From contig WHVA01000068.1 of NCBI GenBank assembly GCA_015179125.1, positions 1 through 64,000 on the forward strand: a stretch of 64,000 bases of DNA, in the 5' to 3' direction. Numbering within the stretch: position 1 is the first letter of the stretch; each line of letters starts with the position of its first letter. The notes below the pieces were generated by a model. It saw only the letters and a list, made by a program, of their open reading frames with translations, was not told the origin of the DNA and did not search any database. The translations under genes were made by a program, and so were the position numbers. The DNA comes from Gautieria morchelliformis (taxonomy: Eukaryota > Basidiomycota > Agaricomycetes > Gomphales > Gomphaceae). Positions 1,505-63,665 of this stretch are shown in pieces.

Positions 1505-4500
1505 ATGCGTCCCTTTCAGCCACTCAACGATGACTCGTTCTCTGTCTCAGAGTCCTTGCTAACAGCGACCTCCTCATCCACCGTCTGGGGTCCAGGAGCT
1601 CTGTCCGGAAAGGCACTGAAGGCATTTGGAGAAAGGAGCCTCGACCTGGTTTGCCATGTGTCAATTCGCATGCGACTGGCGAAGATCAAGCGAGCGATTG
1701 AAAACACACCGCATGTCTTCTATGATCCCATGGATGCCATTGAATCCCAGCGATTGGATGAATATCATTCTGACTTGAAAGAGCTCTGCAAGTGAGCTTG
1801 CACCGCCATACTCTAAGAAAACTACTCATACCATGAGCGGTTGTATGATAATAGGGTCAAATATTCACTTTCAGTTCGATGTGCGGCGGGGGATATAATC
1901 AGGAAGATCACACTGATTCAGAGACCTGAGCGTCCCGACCCATCCTGTAGTTCTGTTGGTGAGTGTGATGGTTTCCTGGCATGGCTTCGTATCAATCAGG
2001 TTTCGCACAATAGGACACACACTCTCACAGTGGGAGGTTCTTCTCGCTCCCCTTCTGGCCCCCGGTGGTGTGTTGTTTTTAGAAGAGGTCAACCCTTCGA
2101 GTTTCCGCCCTGACCTCGGAGGTCTGCATTCTGAGAGCCTGGGTGACCGGAATCAGGTGCGCAGCACACCACTATGTTGTGCGGATGTTTGGACTGATCT
2201 CAAAAATTAGATAAATAATGGATTGAGGGCCGCAGGCGGCCCACAAGAGGATCGCCCGGGAAACGTCAACCCTTCGAGTTTCCGCCCTCACTCTCTCAGA
2301 GGTTTGCATCCTGAGAGCGAAGGCCACACCGAGTGGGTCACGTCGGTGGCGTTCTCGCACGACGACAAGCGAATCGTCTCCGGGTCTCGTGACATGACGA
2401 TCCGTGTGCGGAATGCAGACACCCGGGAGCTCATTTTAGCACCATTCGAAGGCCACACCGATTGGGTCACGTCGGTCGCGTTCTCGCACGACGACAAGCT
2501 GATCGTCTCCGGCTCTGGAGACAAGATGATCCTTGTATGGAGTGCAGACACCGGGGAGCTCATTTCAGCACCATTCGAAGGCCACATCGATTGTGTCACG
2601 TCGGTGGCGTTCTCGCACGACGACAAGCTGATCGTTTCCGGCTCTGGAGACAAGACGATCCGTGTATGGAGTGCAGACACTGGGGAGCTCATTTTAGCAC
2701 CATTGGAAGGCCACACCGACTGGGTCACGTCGATGGCGTTCTCGCACGACGGCAAGCAGATCGTCTCCGGGTCTTTTGACAAGACGATCTGTGTGTGGAA
2801 TGCAGACACCGGGGAGCTCATTTCACCACCGTTCGAAGGCCACACCGGCGGGGTCACGTCGGTGGCGTTCTCGCACGACGGGAAGCGGATCGTCTCTGGG
2901 TCTTTCGACAAGACGATCCGTGTGTGGAATGCAGACACCGGGGAGGTAATTTCGGGACCATTCGAAGGCCACACCGACAGGGTCACGTCGGTGGCGTTCT
3001 CGCACGACGGCAAGCGCATCGTCTCCGGGTCTTTTGACAAGACGATCGGTGTGTGGAGTGCAGACACCGGGGAGCTCATTTCAGCACCACTCGAAGGCCA
3101 CGCCGACAGCGTCATGTCAGTGGCGTTCTCGCACGACGGCAAGCGGATCGTCTCCGGGTCTTGTGACAAGACGATTCGTGTGTGGAATGCAGAGAGCAAG
3201 CGGATCGTCTCCGGGTCTAATGACAAGACGATCCGTGAACGGAGTTCAGGCACCAGGGAGCTCATTCCAGCACTATTCGGAGGCCACACCGACTGGGTCA
3301 CGTCGGTAGCGTTCTCGCACGACGGCAAGCGGATCGTCTCTGGGTCTCGTGACAAGACGATCCGTGTGTGGAATGCAGACAGGGTGGACATTATTTCAGC
3401 ACCACTCGAAGGCCACACCGCCTTGGTCAGGTCTGTCGCATTCTCGCACGACGGCAAGCGGATCGTCTCCGGGTCTGATGACAAGACGATCGGTGTGTGG
3501 AGTGCAGACACCGGGGAGCTCATGTCAGCACCATTCAGAGGCCACACCCACTGGGTCACGTCGGTGGCGTTCTCGCACGACGGTAGGCGGATCGTCTCCG
3601 GGTCTTTTGACAAGACGATTCGTGTGTGGAGTGCAGCCACCGGGGAGCTCATTTCAGCACCGTTCGAAGGCCACACACACTCCGTCAGGTCGGTAATGTT
3701 CTCGCACGACGGCAAGCGCATCGTCTCTGGTTCTGATGATAGGACGGTCCGTGTGTGGAGTGCAGATACCGGGGAGTTTATTTCAGCACCATTCAGAGGC
3801 CACGCCGACTGGGTCACGTCGGTGGCGTTCTCGCACGACGGCAAGCGCATCGTCTCCGGGTCTGATGACAAGACGATTCGTGTATGGAATGCAGACACCG
3901 GGAAGGTCATTTCAGCACCATTCAAAGGCCACACCGACTGGGTCAGGTCTGTGGCGTTCTCGCACGACGGCAAGCGGGTCGTCTCTGGGTCTGGTGACAA
4001 GACGATCCGTGTGTGGAATGCAGACACCGGGGAGGCCATTTCAGGTCCATTCAAAGGCCACACCGACTGGGTCAGGTCCGTGGCGTTCTCGCACGACGGC
4101 AAGCGGATCGTCTCTGGGTCTGATGACAAGACAATCCGTGTGTGGAATGCAGAGAGCACGCGCATCGTCTCCGGGTCTCATGACAAGAGGATCCCTGTGT
4201 GGAGTGAAGGCACCGGGGAGCTCATTCGAGCACTATTCGGAGGCCACACCGACTGGGTCATGTCGGTAGCGTTCTCGCACGACGGCAAGCGGATCGTCTC
4301 CGGGTCTCGTGACAAGACAATCCGTGTGTGGAATGCAGACACCGTGGACGTCATTTCAGCACCATTTGAAGGCCACACCGCCTTGGTCAGGTCGGTAGCG
4401 TTCTCGCACGACGGCAAGCGGATCGTCTCCGGGTCTTTTGACAAGACGATCCGTGTGTGGAGTGCAGACACTGGGGAGCTCATTTCAGCACCATTCGAAG

Positions 4501-6113
4501 GCCACACCCACTGGGTCACGTCGGTGGCGTTCTCACACGACGGCAGGCGGATCGTCTCCGGGTCTTTTGACAAGACGATTCGTGTGTGGAATGCAGACAC
4601 CGGGGAGGTCATTTCAGCACCATTCGAAGGCCACACCCACTTCGTAAGGTCGGTGATGTTCTCGCACGACGGCAAGCGCATCGTCTCTGGTTCTGATGAC
4701 AAGACGATTCGTGTGTGGAGTGCACGCACCGGTGAGCTCATTTCAGCACCATTCAGAGGCCACACCGACTTGGTCAGGTCGGTGGCGTTCTCGCACGATG
4801 GCAAACGGATCGTCTCTGGGTCTGATGACAACACGATCCGTGTATGGAATGCAGACACCGGCAATGTCATTTCAGCACCATTCAAAGGCCACACCGGCTG
4901 GGTCACGTCGGTGGCGTTCTCGCACGACGGCAAGCGCATCGTCTCTGGGTCTCGTGACAAGACGATCCGTGTATGGAATGCAGACACCGGGAAGGTCATT
5001 TCAGCTCCATTCAAAGGCCACACCGACTGGGTCAGGTCCGTGGCGTTCTCGCACGACGGCAAGCGCATCGTCTCGGGGTCTGGTGACAAGACGATCTGTG
5101 TGTGGAATGCAGACACCGGGGAGGTCATTTCAGGTCCATTCAAAGGCCACACCGACTGGGTCAGGTCCGTGGCGTTCTCGCACGACGGCAAGCGGATCGT
5201 CTCCGGATCTGATGACAACACAATCCGTGTGTGGAATGCAGAGAGCCAGCGCATCGTCTCCTGGTCTCATGCCAAGAGGATCCCTGTGTGGAGTGAAGGC
5301 ACCGGGGAGCTCATTTCAGCACCATTCAGAGGCCACACCGACTGGGTCATGTCGGTCGCGTTCTCGCATGACGGCAAGCGGCTCGTCTCCGGGTCTCGTG
5401 ACAAGACGATCCGTGTGTGGAATGCAGACACCGTGGACGTCATTTCAGCACCATTCGAAGGCCACACCGCCTTGGTCAGGTCGGTAGCGTTCTCGCACGA
5501 CGGCAAGCGGATCGTCTCCGGGTCTTTTGACAAGACGATCCGTGTGTGGAGTGTAGGCACCGGGGAGCTTATTTTAGCACCATTCGAAGGCCACACCCAC
5601 TGGGTCACGTCGGTGGCGTTCTCGCAAGACGGCAGGTGGATTGCCTCCGGGTCTTTTGACAAGACGATTCGTGTGTGGAATGCAGACACCGGGGAGATCG
5701 TTTCAGCACCGTTCGAAGGCCACACCCACTCCGTCAGGTCGGTGATGTTCTCGCACGACGGCAAGCGGATCGTCTCTGGGTCTGATGACAGGACTATCCG
5801 TGTGTGGAGTGCAGGCACCGGGGAGCTCGTTTCAGCACCATTCAGAGGCCACACAGACTTGGTCTGGTCGGTGGCGTTCTCGCATGACGACAAGCTGATC
5901 GTCTCTGGCTCTGCAGACAAGACGATCCGTGTATGGAATGCAGACACGGGGGAGCTCATTTTAGCACCATTCGAAGGCCACGCCGACTGGGTCACGTCGG
6001 TGATGTTCTCACACGACGGCAAGCGGATCGTCTCTGGGTCTCGTGATAAGACGATATGTGTGTGGAATGCAGACACCGGGGAGGTCATTCCAGCACCATT
6101 CTCAGGTCAATGA
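1505..6113 (+). CDS. WD40 gene A: N-terminal module plus 28 near-identical WD40 repeats
   Basis: Predicted 1465-residue protein from four exons (1505-1791, 1855-1958, 2014-2142, 2236-6113); phases close exactly. Residues 1-170 are the module shared with the G-alpha fusion: acidic/Ser-rich start, SSSTVWGPGALSGKALKAFG, a helical stretch with LAKIKRAIENTP, then YSLSVRCAAGDIIRKITL in exon 2 and LSQWEVLLAPLLAPGG in exon 3. A short linker (NPSSFRP) leads to 28 repeats of 43 residues (129 bp), each close to GHTDWVTSVAFSHDGKRIVS, then GS-x-DKTIRVWNADTGELISAPFE. There is no nucleotide-binding domain. Most change is at the residue after SGS (F, R, D, G, C, A), the two after GHT, and the residue before SVAF, the pattern of NWD allorecognition repeats. 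Intron 2 uses the acceptor ACAATAG because the nearer CAG loses frame. The linker is duplicated, and a 93-nt intron removes the stop between copies. Three irregular repeats (3189, 4149, 5238) carry an extra half-blade. Confidence 0.75.
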
Positions 6114-14737: not shown

Positions 14738-14830
14738 ACGTAGGTTGACCAGCATTGACATAGGGAGTAATGTTAATAACCTATGGCATATCCATGTATG
14801 CCCAGTTGCTGCTGCTGGTAGTATCCGGTA
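14738..14830 (-). repeat. Duplicated ~95-bp segment, copy 2 (possible last exon of the G-alpha gene)
   Basis: Second copy of the segment at 12-110. Read on the minus strand after a possible intron starting at GTACGT (about 14926) and ending at GTGATAG (about 14857), it gives a tail beginning AKSILIRDEITGYYQQQQL. That resembles the closing helix of a G-alpha protein (hydrophobic I-I-L spacing). The simpler model ends the gene earlier, at TAA 14892. Confidence 0.45.
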
Positions 14831-14891
14831 ATCTCATCTCGGATGAGGATGGATTTAGCTATCACGCACATGTCCAAGCAGTGGACAAACG

Positions 14892-17107
14892 TTAGAAATT
14901 TGACGTATTCTCATCACGTGTTGACCTGAGCAACGTACCCATCATCGCTTTCTCATCGACGGCAGTCGTATAATGGATTTGAAGCGCCCTGTTCTTGTCC
15001 TCGACGAAATCTATAAAACACTTTTCGATATGCCTGCACGCATCCTCGTAAGTCTCCCCTTTATAATCAGGCCTCCATTGGTTCAAGGGGTTATTCTCCA
15101 ACTCCTTCGCGAAAACGTCACCCTTGTTAAATATGAGGGTCTTACCAGGGTTGTAATGTCACTGTTAGGTTCCATGTGACCGATAAGGAAACAGCACCCA
15201 CAATGAGAGCATTGGCGAAATGAGGGCAGTTCACTATAGACTGGAACAATGAAAGAGAATCATCCATACGGTTCTGCGGCTTTCCGGTAAGACAGAGTGT
15301 TTGACTAAGGTAGAGACATACCACACAAGATGTTGATTCATCGTAGAAAAATCCGTTGTAGTCGGACAGTGCAACCACAAACAGTATCGCAGAAACGTTT
15401 TCATAACGATGCCCGAACTGTTTTCTGCGTTCAGACCGTTCACCACCTGTGTCTATGAAACTTAGTGTTCCAGAGTTAGAGTCGAGGATCGTTTCGTGTA
15501 TACCAACCGTGCAGATCCGAGCACGGACAGCATCATGAAAGGTGGGCTTGTAATCTGCAGCAAATATCCTGTCCACAGAGTCGCAGAGACTGAAATAAAC
15601 GCCAGTCAGAAGTGGTAGCTCCCAAAAGGTGTACATACTATTCTAGCGAATCAGGTGCGACGAACAGATCATCACTCAACAAGGCCCTTTTTCTCTGGGC
15701 AGCCTTGCGTATCTCTGGATCTCGCCATAGTGAACGAATCATACGTCCCACAGCTAAAAGCTGCGTAGCTGAGAAATTGTCAACATCATAACTCGCCCAC
15801 GGCAGTTCCAGGATATAACGCTTAGCCTCCAATAACGAAGGATGCAGTCCAGAAGACGGAACATTCAGGAGAAGGCTCTTCATCGAGGCTATCGTATTGT
15901 TGACTATAATTTCTCGAGAGAGGTCGGGCTGGTGATCACTTGGCTTTCCTAGAGATGCATGTTTCTGCTGTTTTATTAAAGTGGACTTGCCGACGCCTCC
16001 CGCTCCGAGTACTAGCACTTTGGGCTCGTAACCAATAAATGGAAATGGTCCAGTTTCGCATGCCGTTAGTCGATCCATAGCTCGGGATACCGTCTGTTTC
16101 GAATTCCGATCATGGTGGCTTCGAGAGCATATGGTCCTCAGGCTTGATCTAGCCAGCCAAGAACGAAACCCCGAAGCCTTTGTCATCATGGAAGCTTCCT
16201 GGATTTCCTGGGTCTGAGTCACTTCCACTGTCACCGCGATGACGAGCCCGCTGCTCTTCGAGTTTGGTTCGTGAGATTGTGGACGTCCTGAGGCACATAC
16301 AGCGTCGCTTTCTGAGCCAATGTTCATGCGCTCTGCAGCTACAAACAATAGCATTTGGTACCTCGTCAAAAATGGTCCAGTCAAAGAATTGTGAGCTTAC
16401 CTATGGTCGATTTCTCCCTGAGTGTTCCTGGGCTCCATCGACGGACGCTGATAAATGGACCATGTTCCGCAAAAAGAAGGGGTTCATGACGTTGAATGTG
16501 AGACAAAAGCGATGCCCACTGGGTATGCTTCGGTGTTGAGAAAAGCGATGTCAATCGTTTGGGGTTGGGCGCAAATCCGAGGATCTCTAGAAAAGGACAA
16601 GATGAGATGCATGACAATGGGGAATTCATCCGCGCACCATCAAAGAACGACTTGGCTAAAAATCGACTAATGAGCGATACTATATCGCTGAGCAAATTAG
16701 CAGCTGCCCGGCGCAGTGATAGTGAATAATCTCCCCTATAAGTAGGGAAATGACGAGTACGGTGCATAAGGTATGTCACTTAGACAGTGTTCCGAATCTC
16801 ACCGACAAAGCTCTTCCAGATTGCTGTAAATTGCATCCCTCTGTCGCCAGTCTTTCGCAGACACCGGATTCGTCAAAACAGCGGGACTCCGTTCAAGAGT
16901 TTGTCTGATAAACGCTAATCTGCGGCGGATTATCACGCGGCAGAGGAGGTCCAGACTCGTCTCCCCAAACGCTTTGAGAGCCTTCCCACTTAGAGCTCCC
17001 GGACCCCAGGTGGTTGATGAGGAAGAAGCTGTGTCAACGGTATTTGAGTCCGTGAAAAAGGATAGATCGTCAGACAACCTGGAGATTGGGAGCTGTCCCG
17101 TAGCCAT
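14892..17107 (-). CDS. Fusion protein: WD40-family N-terminal module plus G-protein alpha subunit
   Basis: Six exons (17107-16803, 16735-16401, 16338-15639, 15589-15322, 15273-15202, 15140-14892) with introns of 67, 62, 49, 48 and 61 nt join in one frame to give 642 residues. Residues 1-190 match the module of the WD40 genes: SSSSTTWGPGALSGKALKAFG, LDLLCRVIIRRRLAFI, YSLSLRRAAANLL, TQWASLLSHIQRHEPLLFAE. After a Ser-rich linker the G-alpha domain follows: P-loop LGAGGVGKSTLIKQQ (G1), helical domain, switch I RARICTVGI (G2), switch II DTGGERSERR (G3), NRMDDSLSLFQSIVN, NKGD (G4) and TTAVD (G5). G-alpha proteins bind GTP and relay receptor signals. Three oddities stand out: the catalytic Gln of switch II (DVGGQRS in typical G-alpha) is Glu; the usual GESGKST is GGVGKST; and the extension hides any N-terminal myristoylation Gly. 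A 51-nt in-frame stretch in exon 2 (about 16583-16633) could be a further intron. The last exon may be longer. Two adjacent genes are unlikely, as the frame is continuous across intron 2. Confidence 0.8.
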
Positions 17108-18094: not shown

Positions 18095-19630
18095 TCAGTC
18101 TTCTAATTCGTCCACGTCCTCGTCATCATCTCCCACCTGAGCGCGCTTGACGGCGGAGCCACTCATCAAATCCTCTTCAACCAAGCCCACAACGGCACTA
18201 AGCGCTGCCTTGGACATTCTGGGCATCGCCCCTTCGGCGAGTAGAGGATGCTTCGATGGATCAAGTGATTCCTCTTCGTCCTCCCCGTCCCCGTCCCCGT
18301 CCCCTTCCCCCTCCTCTTCCTCCTCCTCTTCCCCCTCCTCCTCATTGCTTCCTGACTGTCCCTCGCCTCCATCTCCTGAATTCCCGCCATCCGAAGAATC
18401 TGAACTTCCAGAGCCGCCGTCTGATTCGGAATCACTCTCAAAGTCAGAGTCATCCGAATCTTCTGGGTCTTCGTCCGCCTTGGTTTCTGGCGTATCCTCG
18501 CCTGCTGCAAGCTCGTTGGTTTGGGTGCCATCCTGAGTCTCGGATGTGTGACGTCGAGTTACCCCGAACCGATGCCGGTTCTCTTGAACCCATCGCGCGA
18601 CAGCATCTTGATTTTTTCCATCAATTAAAGAAAACTCAGTCTCTTCTCCCCCCTCACTCTCATCCCCATCAGTGGCCTCTCTTAGACGAGTCACAAACAA
18701 TGAGAAAGTACGCCCAGTTGCTGACAACGACCTGACATTGTCGATTACCTCCAGTCCAATCCACATACACGGTTTCTTCTCCCCGAAAAGAAGCCCCTCT
18801 TTGAAAAATAGCAGATGCCCATCCTTTGCTCGTAGGTACGTGTCTAAGAACGGCTCGCCTGTTGCAGAGCGGAAAATAGAAGTGGACGGCTCCTGTAAAA
18901 CGACACGGGAGGGAAGGTGGGAAAGAAACTGCATCACAGCAGGCTTCGCCTCGGTGCCTTTCGGGTTAGTGTGAGGAGATGCCGGATGTGTAGTAGTGGT
19001 AAGGGAGGGGGGGACTGCTTCTAAGCCAAATATCATTTGACTTTGTTCAGCATCGGTAAGTATGATGACAGTCCAGTGCGGTTTACTCTTTCCGGGAGTA
19101 GAAATGAGGAATGCCCGAGTCAGAGAACTGTGTGGAATGTAAGCTTCTTGCGCGCCAGACGTCACATGCGTGAAGCGGATTGAATTGTGGTGTATTGTAA
19201 TGTGAACCTTTTTCCGAACGGGAGAGGACGCGGATACCGCATGCAGAGAAAAGATGGGATCGTCTGAGCCTCCGACGCTGTCAGAACCTAGCTTCACTTT
19301 TTTAGCCTTTGGATCAGAGACGGAAGGTTGCAGTGGGTCCTCTTCTCGTGCCCGTTTTTTTCCATTCTCACCTCCCGATCCCAAGCTTGAAAGCGCGTTC
19401 TGGACTTTCTGCCTCTGGGTGTTCCATTCTTCTCGCAAGTCCAGGTCTTCGACATTGCAGTCCCTGTTCAAAGCCAACCGCACAAGCTGATCGAGAGTGT
19501 GTCGCACTACACTTTCACGAGTGGCTCTCGATAGCAAATCGTCGATGCCGGATTTCAAGGAGCTTGGTAGTAGAGGGTAGACCGCATCGAAATGTGTCGT
19601 TTCATGAGACATGGCACGTTTGCCAGGCAT
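18095..19630 (-). CDS. RTT106: Histone chaperone Rtt106-like
   Basis: Single-exon gene of about 511 residues from the ATG at 19630 (MPGKRAMSHE; another ATG follows at 19612). Rtt106 binds histone H3-H4 in the nucleus during replication-coupled and heterochromatin assembly. The N-terminal third holds a helical dimerisation-like region and a basic nuclear signal (KKRAREED, KAKKVKL). Then come the double pleckstrin-homology-like fold segments: KKVHITIHHNSIRFTHV, HWTVIILTDAEQSQMIFGLE, LRAKDGHLLFFKEGLLFGEK and the PCMWIGLEVIDNVRSLS strand. The C-terminal 150 residues are a long Asp/Glu/Ser acidic tail, common in histone chaperones, ending DDEDVDELED. The family call rests on domain order and tail; Pob3/Spt16-type PH proteins are the main alternative, but they are larger. 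Confidence 0.75.
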   Translation of the reverse strand: MPGKRAMSHETTHFDAVYPLLPSSLKSGIDDLLSRATRESVVRHTLDQLVRLALNRDCNVEDLDLREEWNTQRQKVQNALSSLGSGGENGKKRAREEDPLQPSVSDPKAKKVKLGSDSVGGSDDPIFSLHAVSASSPVRKKVHITIHHNSIRFTHVTSGAQEAYIPHSSLTRAFLISTPGKSKPHWTVIILTDAEQSQMIFGLEAVPPSLTTTTHPASPHTNPKGTEAKPAVMQFLSHLPSRVVLQEPSTSIFRSATGEPFLDTYLRAKDGHLLFFKEGLLFGEKKPCMWIGLEVIDNVRSLSATGRTFSLFVTRLREATDGDESEGGEETEFSLIDGKNQDAVARWVQENRHRFGVTRRHTSETQDGTQTNELAAGEDTPETKADEDPEDSDDSDFESDSESDGGSGSSDSSDGGNSGDGGEGQSGSNEEEGEEEEEEEGEGDGDGDGEDEEESLDPSKHPLLAEGAMPRMSKAALSAVVGLVEEDLMSGSAVKRAQVGDDDEDVDELED

Positions 19631-20379
19631 GCTTCGGATCACCGTAAACAGGCGCGATCGGGCTCACCCGTGTATCTGGCCTCTTCCGCAACAACCAACA
19701 ATCATTTCTTTCCAGTCAAGTACAAGGACTTCATACTGTCATGGTTATGCTTGTTGCACACTAGCAATTTTCTCATCAACCCATAAGTGAAAGCATAAAG
19801 ATGTTGATGGCCGAGTGGGAAATCGATTACAATGCCATGAGCGAAAGCTTAAATCAAAGCTTACGCGACTAGTTCGATCGCGATGCCATATGGTGCTCAT
19901 GTCTTCTCTGAGTCGGCGTTCAACGGCGATATTTCGCTGAATTTGACAAGGGGTCACATGTACAGATGAAGAGTCTGAGGGCTGGATTTGGGGGGATGCA
20001 GAAATACACCGATGATTCTGAGGCAGGCGGTGTGACGTCCCAGCACACGATACAGAGTGAGGTCTGTCATCTATATCTTTGTCCTGGGAATTCATCACCA
20101 GTACCTCTGGAAGCTTGACGCGTTCAACGTCGAGGTCGGGCATGTAGATGTCCCGCCCGTCACGCTCACTTCCACCATCTACAACTCATTGTGACCGTTG
20201 AAAGAAATCCCTCAAATGCAAGTCGTTAAGAGCACTGTGATAAAGGTGGCAAGCTGAAGAAACAACGATTCATCGACGCCTCCGAACACATCGGGGAAGG
20301 CAGATGTAAAACGATGCAACCCCCACCTACGGAAATAAAGTTGACACTCTCTGTCATGATTCCCATTTTATAGTTTTGA
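19631..20379. other. Intergenic, no confident gene
   Basis: This holds the upstream region of the Rtt106 gene and the downstream region of the carrier gene. A minus-strand frame at 19745-20143 (132 codons) has no motif, no hydrophobic segment and no splice support. Confidence 0.5.
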
Positions 20380-27857: not shown

Positions 27858-29398
27858 TCATCGAATGGTGCTGAAATTACCCCCGGTGTCTGCATTCCAC
27901 ACAAGGATCGTCTCACCAGACCCAGAGACGATCCGCTTGCCGTCGTGCGAGAACGCAACCGACTTGACCCAGTCGGTGTGGCCTTCGAATGGTCCTAAAA
28001 TTACCTTTCCGGTGTCTGCACTCCACACACGGATCGTCTTGTCACAAGACCCTGAGACGATCCGCTTGCCGTCGTGCGAGAACGCCACCGACTTGACCCA
28101 GTCGGTGTGGCCTTCGAATGGGGCTGAAATTACCCTCCCGGTGCCTGCACTCCACACACGGATCGTCTTGTCACAAGACCCTGAGACGATCCGCTTGCCC
28201 TCCTGCGAGAACGCGACCGAGTTGACCCAGTCGGTGTGGCCTTCGAATGGTGCTGAAATTACCTTCCCGGTGTCTGCACTCCACACACGGATCGTCTTGT
28301 CATCGGACCCGGAGACGATGCGCTTGCCGTCGTGCGAGAACGCGACCGAGTTGACCCGGTCGGTGTGGCCTTTGAATGGTGCTGAAATGGGCTCCCCGGT
28401 GTCCGCATTCCATACAGTGATTGTCTTGTCAAAAGACCCGGAGACGATGCGCTTGCCGTCGTGCGAGAACGCTACCGAGCTGACCGAGTCGGTGTGGCCT
28501 TCGAATGGTGCTGAAATGAGCTCCCCGGTGTCTGCATTCCACACACGTATCGTCTTGTCACGAGACCCAGAGACGACCCGCTTGCCGTCGTGCGAGAACG
28601 CCACCGACATGACCGAGTCGGTGTGGCCTTCGAATGGTGCTGAAATGAGCTCCCCGGTGACCACATTCCATACACGGATCGTCTTATCACCAGACCCGGA
28701 GACGACCCGCCTGCCGTCGTGCGAGAACGCCACCGACGTGACCCAGTCGGTGTGACCTTCGCTCTCAGAATGCAGACCTCTGAGGAAGTCACGGCGGAAA
28801 CTCGAAGGGTCGACCTCTTCCAAAAACAAGACGCCACTGGGGAGCAGAAGGGGAGCGAGAAGAACCTCCCACTGTGTGAGTGTTCTTTCTATTGTGCGAA
28901 ACCCTGAGTAATGCGAAGCCTTGCCACGAAAACATCACACTCACCAACAGAGCTAGAGGATCGGTCGGGACGCTCAGGTGTCTCAATCAGTGTAATCTTC
29001 CTGATTAGATCTCCGGCCGCACGTCGAACTGATAGTGAATATTTGTCCCTGTTATAATACAACCGCTCATGGTATGAGTAGTTTTCTTCGAGTATGTCGA
29101 TTCAAACTCACTCGCAGAGCTCTTTCAAGTCAGAATGATATTCATTCATTCGCTGGGATTCAATGGCATCCCTGGGATCATGGAAGACATGCGGTGTGTT
29201 TTCAATCGCTCGCTTGATCTTCGCCAGTCGTATGCGAATTGCCAGATGGGAAACCAGGTCGAGGCTCCTTTCTCCAACTGCCTTCAGTGCCTTTCCGGAC
29301 AGAGCTCCTGGACTCCAGACGGTGGACGAGGACGACGCTGTTAGCAAGGACTCTGAGGAAGAGAAGGCGCCATCGTTGAGTCGCTGGTAGCGATGCAT
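27858..29398 (-). CDS. WD40 gene B: N-terminal module plus 7 WD40 repeats, 3' truncated
   Basis: Three exons (29398-29112, 29048-28945, 28888-27858) give 473 residues, with exon 1 and exon 2 lengths (287 and 104 nt) identical to genes A and C. The module is intact: SSSSTVWSPGALSGKALKAV, YSLSVRRAAGDLIRKITL, TQWEVLLAPLLLPSG, then the uninterrupted linker FLEEVDPSSFRRDFLRG, which shows the ancestral state of the linker duplicated in gene A. About 6.7 repeats follow. In the last one, DTGG is followed by a one-base frame change and the stop NFSTIR. The old frame continues to about 27812 (ISAPF, HTDWVKSVAFSHDG) and then ends abruptly at unrelated sequence. The copy is therefore 3'-truncated compared with 28 repeats in A. 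Seven blades would still close one propeller, so the product could be functional. Confidence 0.7.
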
Positions 29399-60345: not shown

Positions 60346-63300
60346 ATGTATCGCGTCCAGCCACTCAACGATGACTCGTTCTCTTTCTCAGAGTCCTTGC
60401 TAACAGCGTCGTCCTCGTCCACCGTCTGGGGTCCAGGAGCTCTGTCCGGAAAGGCACTGAAGGCAATCGGAGGAATAAGCCTCGACCTGCTTTGCCAACT
60501 GGCAATTCGCGTGCGACTGGCGAAGATCAAGCGAGCGATTGAAAAGACACCGCATGTCTTCCATGATCCCATGGATGCCATTGAATCCCAGCGAATGAAT
60601 GAATATCATTCTGACTTGGAAGAGCTCTGCGAGTGAGTTTGAATCGCCATACTCGAAGAAAACTACTCATACCATGAGCGGTTGTATTATAACAGCGACA
60701 AATATTCACTATCAGTTCGACGTGCGGCGGGAGATCTAATCAGGAAGATTACACTGATTGAGACACCTGAGCGTCCCGACCGATCCTCTAGCTCTGTTGG
60801 TGAGTGTGATGTTTTGGTGGCATGGCTTCGCATCACTCAGGGTTTCGCACAATAGAAAGAACACTCACACAGTGGGAGGTTCTTCTCGCTCCCCTTCTGC
60901 TCCCCGGTGGTGGTTTGTTTTTGGAAGAGGTTTCTGAGAGCGACGGCCATACCGACTGGATCACGTCGGTGGCGTTCTCGCATGACGGCAAGCGCATCGT
61001 CACCGGATCTTTTGACAAGACGATCCGCGTGTGGAATGCAGACACCAGGGAGGTAATTTCAGCGCCATTCGAAGGCCACACCGCCTCGGTCAGGTCGGTG
61101 GTGTTCTCGCACGACGGCAAGCGCATCGTCTCCGGGTCTGATGACGGCATGATCCGTGTATGGAATGCAGACACCGGGGAGGTCATTTCAGCAACAAGCG
61201 GAGGCCGCACCGATGGCGTTACGTCGGTAGCATTCTCGCAGGACGGCAAGCGCATCGTCTCCGGGTCTGCAGACAATATGATCCGTGTATGGAATTTAGA
61301 CACGGGGAAGCTCATTTCAGCACCATTCGAAGGCCACACCCACTCGGTCAGGTCGGTGGCATTCTCGCACGACGGCAAGCGCATCGTCTCCGGGTCTGAT
61401 GACAATACGATCCGTGTGTGGAGTGCAGACACCGGGGAGCTCATTTCAGCACCATTCAAAGGCCACACCGACTGGGTCAGGTCGGTCGCGTTCTCTCACG
61501 ACGGCAAGCGCGTCGTCTCCGTGTCTGATGACAAGACAATCCGTGTGTGGAATGCAAACACCGGGAAAGTCATTTCAGCACCATTTGAAGGCCACACCGA
61601 CTGGGTCACCTCGGTGGCGTTCTCGCACCACGGCAAGCGGATCGTCTCCCGGTCTGGCGACAACTCGATCCGTGTGTGGAGTGCAGACACCGGGGAGCTC
61701 ATTTCAGCACCATTCGAAGGCCACACCGACCGGGTCACGTCGGTGGCGTTCTCGCACGACGGCAAGCGTATCGTCTCCGGGTCCTGTGACAAGACGATCG
61801 CTGTGTGGAGTGCAGACACTGGGGAGGTCATTTCAGCACCATTCGAAGGCCACACCGCCTTGGTCAGCTCGGTGGCGTTCTCGCACGACGGCAAGCGCAT
61901 CGTCTCCGTGTCTGGTGACAAGATGGTCCGTGTATGGAGTACAGACACCGGGGAGGTTATTTCAGCACCATTCAAAGGCCACACCAACTGGGTCACCTCG
62001 GTGGCGTTCTCGCACGACGGCAAGCGCATCGTCTCCGGGTCTTGTGACAAGACGATCGCTGTGTGGAACGCAGACACCGGGGAGGTCATTTCAGCACCAT
62101 TCGAAGGCCACACCGACTGGGTCCGGTCGGTGGCGTTCTCGCACGACGGCAAGCGCATCGTCTCCGGGTCTGATGACAAGACGATCCGTGTGTGGGGTGC
62201 AGACACCGGGGAGGCCATTTCAGCGCCATTCGAAGGCCACACCGACTGGGTCACGTCGGTGGCGTACTCGCACGACGGCAAGCGGATCGTCTCCGGGTCT
62301 GCAGACAAGATGATCCGTGTATGGACTGCAGACACCGGGGAGCTCATTTCAGCACCATTAGAAGGCCACACCAGATTAGTCACGTCGGTGGCATTCTCGC
62401 ACAACGGCAAGCGGATCGTCTCCGGGTCTGGTGACAAGACGATCCGGGTATGGAATGCAGACACTGGGGAGGTAATTTCAGCACCATTCGAAGGCCACAC
62501 CGATGGCGTCACGTCGGTGGCGTTCTCGCACGACAGCAAGCGGATCGTCTCTGGGTCTCGTGACAACACGATCTGTGTGTGGAATGCAGACACCGGGGAG
62601 GTCATTTCAGCACCATTCGAAGGCCACACCGACTGGGTCACCTCAGTGACGTTCTCGCACGATGGCAGGCGGATCGTCTCTGGGTCAGGTGACAAGACAA
62701 TCCGTGTATGGAGTGCAGACACCAGGGAGCTCATTCCGGCACCATTTGAAGGCCACACCGACTGGGTCACATCGGTCGCGTTCTCGCACGACGGCAAGCG
62801 GATCGTCTCCGGGTCTGCAGACAAGATGATCCGTGTATGGACTGCAGACACCGGGGAGCTCATATCAACACCATTCGAAGGCCACACCAGATTAGTCACG
62901 TCGGTGGCATTCTCGCACAACGGCAAGCGGATCGTCTCCGGGTCTGGTGACAAGACGATCCGGGTATGGAATGCAGACACCGGGGAGGTAATTTCAGCAC
63001 CATTCGAAGGCCACACCGATGGCGTCACGTCGGTGGCGTTCTCGCACGACAGCAAGCGCATCGTCTCCGGGTCTCTTGACAAGACAATCCGTGTGTGGAG
63101 TGCAGACGCCGGGGAGGTCATTTCAGCACCATTCGAAGGCCACACCGACTGGGTCCGGTCGGTGGCGTTCTCGCACGACGGCAAGCGCATCGTCTCTGGG
63201 TCTGATGACAAGGCGATCTGTGTGTGGAATGCAGACACCGGGGAGCTCGTTTCAGCACCATTCGAAGGCCACACCGACTGGGTCAGGTCGGTGGCGTTCT

Positions 63301-63665
63301 CGCACGACGGCAAGCGGGTCGTCTCTGGATCTGATGATACGACGATCCGTGTGTGGAATGTAGACACCGGGGAGGTCATTTCAGCACCATTCAAAGGCCA
63401 CACCCACATCATCACCTCGGTCGCTTTCTCGCACGACGGCAAGCGCATCGTCTCTGGGTCTTTTGACAAGACGATCCGTGTGTGGAATGCAGACACCGGG
63501 GCGGTCAATTCAGCACCATTCGAAGGCCACACTGACTGGGTCATGTCGGTGGTATTCTCGCAGGATGGCAAGCGCATTGTCTCCGGGTCTCATGACAAGA
63601 CGATCCGTGTGTGGAATGCAGACACCGGGGAAGTCATCTCAGCACACACTCGAAGGCCACACTGA
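60346..63665 (+). CDS. WD40 gene C: N-terminal module plus 21 WD40 repeats, frameshifted end
   Basis: Three exons (60346-60632, 60696-60799, 60856-63665) give 1066 residues. An alternative exon 3 acceptor at 60841 is also in frame and adds GFRTI. The module is complete: SSSSTVWGPGALSGKALKAI, LAKIKRAIEKTPHVFHDPMD, YSLSVRRAAGDLIRKITL, LTQWEVLLAPLLLPGGGLFL. The NPSSFR linker is missing, so the first repeat follows VSESDGHTDWITS directly. 21 repeats of 43 residues follow, varying at the same positions as in gene A (after SGS: F, D, A, G, C, R, L, H). Repeats 11-13 and 15-17 are near copies, 516 bp (four repeats) apart. The last blade runs into AHTRRPH* because of one extra base near 63643. The product lacks a final blade but is otherwise open. 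Confidence 0.75.

Follow-up and report, generated by a model that had tools for sequence, protein, structure and literature searches.

Recognition in fungi is known mainly through NOD-like receptors (NLRs, after their nucleotide-binding oligomerisation domain, NOD), in which the sensor and a nucleoside triphosphatase (NTPase) lie on one chain, and fungal G-alpha proteins are known mainly through cell-surface receptors. The WD40 repeats of the HET-D/E family are reported to be under strong positive selection at codons 7, 9, 25 and 27, each pair flanking a conserved site (Paoletti et al., 2007, PMC1805685), and the TPR and ANK arrays of fungal NLRs are also described as being under positive selection (Dyrka et al., 2014, PMC4986451). 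On the G-alpha side, one Podospora protein, MOD-D, is listed as suppressing heterokaryon incompatibility, the text describing this suppression stating no mechanism (PMC1325252). Here we describe a locus of Gautieria morchelliformis, a member of the Gomphales from a genus counted among the ectomycorrhizal fungi (PMC7550596), at which one N-terminal module of about 160 residues, predicted to be helical, opens both a G-alpha gene and three WD40 repeat genes, termed A, B and C. The window, that is the whole stretch of DNA analysed, comprises bases 1-64000 of contig C759 from a genome of 122 Mb in 1113 contigs; seven module genes lie on this contig, all inside 126 kb.

A sequence-only reading of the window had proposed that these four genes share their N-terminus, and the modules are indeed found at the starts it gave, namely 17107 (-) for the G-alpha gene, 1505 (+) for gene A, 29398 (-) for gene B and 60346 (+) for gene C. 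The features are as follows:

16486..17107, minus strand: N-terminal module of the G-alpha gene (residues 1-168 of GenBank protein P0001; exons 17107-16803, 16735-16638 and part of 16586-16486)
16736..16802, minus strand: intron 1 of the G-alpha gene, phase 2, after ELC, at a position common to the other module genes
16587..16637, minus strand: intron 2 of the G-alpha gene, phase 1, counterpart of intron 2 in the WD40 and TPR genes
16037..16485, minus strand: linker from module to G-alpha, containing intron 16400-16339
14773..16036, minus strand: G-alpha domain (PF00503) with the motifs GAGGVGKST, RARICTVGI, DTGGE and NKGD
G-alpha domain exons, minus strand: to 15639, 15589-15322, 15273-15202, 15140-14939 and 14858-14776; stop codon 14775-14773
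1505..1958, plus strand: module of gene A (GenBank P0009), exons 1505-1791 and 1855-1958, continuing at 2014-2156
2211..6113, plus strand: linker and WD40 array of gene A, 28 units counted, single reading frame
27858..29398, minus strand: gene B, module exons 29398-29112 and 29048-28945, then from 28888; 6 WD40 units counted
60346..63665, plus strand: gene C, module exons 60346-60632 and 60696-60799, then from 60856; 21 WD40 units counted

In a four-sequence set, the modules of the G-alpha gene and gene A share 52% identity across 120 amino acids (E 3e-33). A six-frame search of the whole genome with the gene C module reaches the G-alpha exon at E 1.4e-22, a likeness well beyond what chance would give. 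All four genes have intron 1 at one position and in one phase (phase 2, after ELC), as had been read from the letters. The GenBank protein of the window gene, P0001 (638 residues, 'G-protein alpha subunit-domain-containing protein [Gautieria morchelliformis]'), has module and G-alpha on a single chain and maps onto the window in eight exons, 17107-14776 (-). The six-exon model of the sequence-only reading also closes, giving 644 residues when made again, but it had overlooked two introns, intron 2 of the module (16637-16587) and the last intron (14938-14859). With the latter, coding ends at about 14773 rather than 14892; this intron restores a C-terminal helix of the G-alpha domain, which the paralogues have as well. 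The point at 16401-16338 where the gene might have been split in two proved to be a 62-nt intron within one annotated gene. In gene A the GenBank model, marked partial, likewise joins the module to WD40 repeats, and all units counted in each of genes A, B and C lie in one frame.

Across the genome the six-frame search gives 34 matches, which we count as 33 module loci because two matches on C143 belong to one gene; locus counts from this search are lower bounds. Two additional searches with divergent modules returned 27 and 28 matches, all at loci already known. The C-terminal partners, looked for genome-wide, are WD40 repeats at 16 loci, G-alpha at eight, TPR arrays at two, a second module at two and an ARM-like tail at one, with no partner found at two (C641 and L047 on C404, the latter with retroelement-like sequence downstream) and module fragments at the last two (C848, C706). 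The copy at L047 has stop codons in exon 1. Both double-module genes, L025 (C652) and L027 (C255), are tandem arrangements with a first helix that is hydrophobic by eye and no other domain seen within 1.5 kb. L051 (C371, 113.4 kb) carries a divergent module that has kept intron 1, followed by a tail judged ARM-like by eye, no profile having been run; this architecture may be older. Ten module-bearing proteins are present in the GenBank annotation. Module and G-alpha are joined at eight of about 22 G-alpha loci (counted from 53 exon matches), and five of these are fused in GenBank (P0001, P0002, P0004, P0005 and P0006). On contigs C759, C863 and C822, G-alpha fusions occur together with WD40 or TPR fusions. 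C471 and C863 each hold a tandem pair of module G-alpha genes, one with a young-type and one with a P0004-type module.

The module itself appears to have no well-described counterpart, as had been suspected: a Pfam profile scan of eight members gave no match below E 0.004, although divergent effector families could escape such a scan, no relative was found in the PDB, and no description of it was found. Structure prediction agrees with a helical module of four main helices (residues 35-67, 78-94, 101-116 and 127-145, predicted from nine sequences). The mean predicted local distance difference test score (pLDDT) of the model is 62, reaching about 90 at residues 51-110 only and falling below 50 in the leader and most of the tail, and its structural matches are no better than the chance level for helical bundles. 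The leader is serine-rich and modelled with low confidence, and the first helix contains a hydrophobic stretch, by eye strongest in L025. In the one full-length model of a G-alpha fusion, a long low-confidence linker lies between module and G-alpha.

The intron positions point to common descent. Intron 1 is in phase 2 after ELC (or ELS, EFC) in all 23 spliced loci (A, B, C and L031-L050) and is also common to the window G-alpha gene, the P0004 type, L025, L027 and L051. Intron 2 is in phase 1 in 19 of the 23; the aligner placed it in a different phase in L039, L040, L041 and L050, of which L050 has a deletion at the intron 2 site. In a module tree of 30 rows most young copies fall into an unresolved group. 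The G-alpha label has to change four times on this tree, well-supported branches forcing three of these changes, and the module of L034 (G-alpha) is sister to that of L048 (WD40) with support 95/97. Since at least three changes are required, the module has, judging from the tree, switched partners more than once. Compared with the young set, the window G-alpha module has reached synonymous saturation (pS 0.75, pN 0.31, the proportions of synonymous and nonsynonymous differences) with its frame open, and is therefore no recent capture. The modules of the P0004-type G-alpha genes are only about 32% identical to that of the TPR gene P0003, yet all of them join G-alpha. Apparently whole G-alpha fusions are the window gene, L034, L040b and L030, and ten of the 16 WD40 loci are free of stops in module exon 1 and of split-frame units.

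To describe the sensor end, we used a consensus (24 of 43 residues) to pick 205 WD units in 16 genes; their mean amino-acid identity is 75%. High internal conservation of WD40 or TPR repeats, a trait of fungal NLRs, is thus seen here as well: 26 of the 28 units of gene A have a partner at 85% identity or more, but only 4 of 14 units in L043 and 2 of 14 in L045 do, identity being taken per unit here and not by the threshold of Dyrka (85% over 100 amino acids). Entropy is highest at sites 23, 7, 5, 4, 37, 43, 25 and 40. By the geometry of conserved sites, in a mapping made here, sites 5, 7, 23 and 25 would be the equivalents of the HET-D/E codons 7, 9, 25 and 27; they rank 3, 2, 1 and 7 of 43 by entropy. 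Only 9 of 123,410 four-site sets, the observed one included, reach their entropy, shifting this geometry to its 42 other positions never does, and 104 residue combinations occur at the four sites. Their nonsynonymous diversity relative to overall synonymous diversity (piN over overall piS) is 1.45, 1.68, 2.49 and 0.88, respectively; these are diversity ratios and not estimates from a codon model. Through this mapping, the Gautieria arrays would resemble fungal NLRs in having hypervariable positions on the propeller face that binds. The TPR array of L033 counts 16 units, 80% alike on average, with site 21 the most variable.

The sequence-only reading had hinted at the WD40 part as a G-beta-like partner of G-alpha, which the data do not support: the proteins scanned fall below the Pfam cut-off for G-beta (PF25391, 150 bits), with 136.7 bits for gene B and 93.2 for the partial P0009 (the full A and C arrays lay outside the scan), and the unit counts are unlike seven blades, A and C having 28 and 21 near-identical units in place of seven distinct ones. 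Of its broader suggestion of an undescribed recognition family, the part that survives is that the arrays resemble recognition domains and that the module was found described nowhere; the G-beta-like pairing does not, and the adaptor or effector role suggested for the module stays putative. That reading was also right in seeing no NACHT domain in these genes. None of 32 NACHT matches genome-wide lies at a module locus (NB-ARC was not searched genome-wide), P0003 and P0004 have no NACHT or NB-ARC match at E up to 0.001, gene B and P0009 have none among the 25 best families listed, and in P0001 STAND-like models give only sub-threshold P-loop matches.

At the switch end, the G-alpha domain of the window gene matches PF00503 (227.1 bits against a cut-off of 48.8, E 4e-67), and its model superimposes on solved G-alphas with a template-modelling (TM) score of 0.85. 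The gene retains the P-loop, the switch I arginine and NKGD. In place of the usual DVGGQ, however, DTGGE is found in the DNA of all eight module G-alpha loci, so that the catalytic glutamine of switch II (DxGGQ) that characterises G-alpha is replaced at each of them. Among 19 module-free G-alphas in the same result list, 18 have the glutamine (DVGGQ) and one has methionine; they are a loose control, as none of the 19 is from Gautieria. In Ras, Q61E is faster rather than slower. The guanine motif NKxD reads TKGD in P0002, P0004, P0005 and P0006.

What the analysis establishes, namely a common module, its descent, partner swaps, NLR-like WD variability and a G-alpha fold altered at a catalytic position, leads us to put forward, tentatively but as a serious possibility, a basidiomycete non-self-recognition family without a NOD, in which sensing by the arrays would be coupled through the module to a G-alpha switch. 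No NTPase core was found with the repeats, and G-alpha is the only nucleotide switch seen sharing the N-terminus. We propose receptor and switch on two separate chains, joined by the common module, because this is the simplest mechanism that uses all the parts; in a fungal NLR, repeats and NACHT share one chain. By analogy with the NLR-like behaviour of the repeats, the WD40 or TPR arrays likely sense, and they would bind variable ligands as the repeat domains of fungal NLRs do. Ligand binding would make modules assemble with one another, and this module-to-module contact would recruit or release G-alpha, whose GTPase would serve as the nucleotide switch; homotypic coupling with G-alpha as read-out is our conjecture. 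The reported suppression of incompatibility by MOD-D in Podospora makes such a read-out a reasonable idea. The full form of the proposal, a split immune receptor with sensors and G-alpha on separate chains, homotypic module contact, G-alpha in the role of NACHT and GTP hydrolysis altered through glutamate for glutamine in every copy, we regard as doubtful.

Several observations weigh against a coupled recognition family. The module comes from a single species, protein searches having given matches to it in Gautieria alone, although the copy likeliest to reach other species was not among the queries. Shared contigs may reflect mere tandem duplication. The young module set (19 copies) is under weak constraint (pN/pS 0.71), and four of the eight G-alpha fusions look broken: the frame is lost at the P-loop in L028 and L041a and in module exon 1 in L041b (P0006), and L040a has a stop in the gene model made here. 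Among the WD40 loci, L032 (C759 at 91,769) and L045 (C614) have stops in module exon 1, and L031, L038, L048 and L050 have units in two reading frames, for which introns or assembly errors may be responsible. As for the variable sites, diverged units were missed because units were chosen by consensus likeness, the match of sites to codons was made after the entropies were known, sites 4, 37, 40 and 43 vary too, and piN/piS is 0.61 over the whole unit and just 0.88 at site 25.

The main rival to coupling is that unrelated proteins each use the module on their own, for targeting (such as attachment to membranes) or dimerisation: WD40 and TPR proteins would recognise and the G-alphas would signal in the ordinary way, the two never meeting. 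The serine-rich leader with the hydrophobic stretch behind it, partners very unlike one another, and the linker that sets the module apart in the full-length model all fit this account; partner swaps inside one young clade and shared contigs suggest a common pathway without proving it, and we consider independent use somewhat doubtful. A module that itself executes, as a membrane-acting helical bundle like the N-termini of HeLo or MLKL proteins that its partners merely release, appears unlikely to us, even though the N-terminal position and the helical bundle recall fungal NLR effectors and HeLo-like and MLKL-like domains are reported from basidiomycete NLRs (PMC9815663).

Much of the damage listed above could also arise if the fusions were by-products of 5' exon capture in a repeat-rich genome, module exons and promoter being copied before other genes and most fusions decaying. 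The size of the genome, the retroelement-like open reading frames (ORFs) noted by eye in the window, the damage signs in 4 of 8 G-alpha and 6 of 16 WD40 copies and the weak constraint on the young set agree with such an origin. It is nevertheless quite improbable, given that the module of the window G-alpha gene is old with its frame intact, that the P0004-type modules have diverged so far from that of P0003 and still all join G-alpha, and that GenBank annotates ten module proteins. That two adjacent genes have been read as one is scarcely credible: the join does rest on genomic gene models, but the GenBank model P0001 makes it independently and the architecture recurs at eight loci, at five of them fused in GenBank.

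In the surroundings, the G-alpha fusion adjoins an ORF at 18095-19663 (-) with the middle domain of an Rttp106-like histone chaperone (PF08512, E 2.8e-14). Retroelement-like ORFs recognised by eye lie between module genes at about 31.9-36.3 kb (-, Ty3-type) and 44.5-48.3 kb (-, Ty1-type), and one of long interspersed nuclear element (LINE) type at about 50.9-58.4 kb (+) of the window.

Compared with described systems, the Gautieria WD40 genes are closest to the HNWD NLRs of Podospora anserina (HET-D and HET-E; HET-NACHT-WD40): both are multigene families with an N-terminal domain in front and near-identical C-terminal WD40 units, whose hypervariable sites correspond, by the mapping made here, to the same four. 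In the Gautieria genes, by contrast, neither NACHT nor NB-ARC is matched between N-terminus and repeats, and the N-terminal domain, which has no Pfam match, is also present on G-alpha. The TPR genes resemble fungal NB-ARC/NACHT-TPR NLRs in their TPR_10/TPR_12 units of high internal identity, while P0003 lacks a nucleotide-binding domain. In the proteins scanned, the NACHT or NB-ARC domain that defines a fungal NLR (STAND receptor) was not found; the family, opening with one module before either fast-changing sensor repeats or a G-alpha, suggests a recognition system built without the usual immune-receptor core. Plant XLG proteins likewise carry G-alpha behind a long N-terminal extension and have an immune role (PMC8584482), but their extension, compared here by description only, has a cysteine-rich motif and nuclear signals, and the description consulted does not mention that it is shared with repeat sensors. 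With canonical fungal G-alphas, including MOD-D and its reported tie to heterokaryon incompatibility (PMC1325252), the fusions share the fold and the GTP-binding motifs; they differ in the module in front, in DTGGE for DVGGQ, in GAGG(V/T)GKST for GAGESGKST and, in several copies, in TKGD. A module common to sensors and G-alpha within one multigene family, with HET-E-like variation at the sensor sites, would link the NLR and G-alpha fields and would make it testable whether G-alpha transduces recognition by NLR-like repeats.
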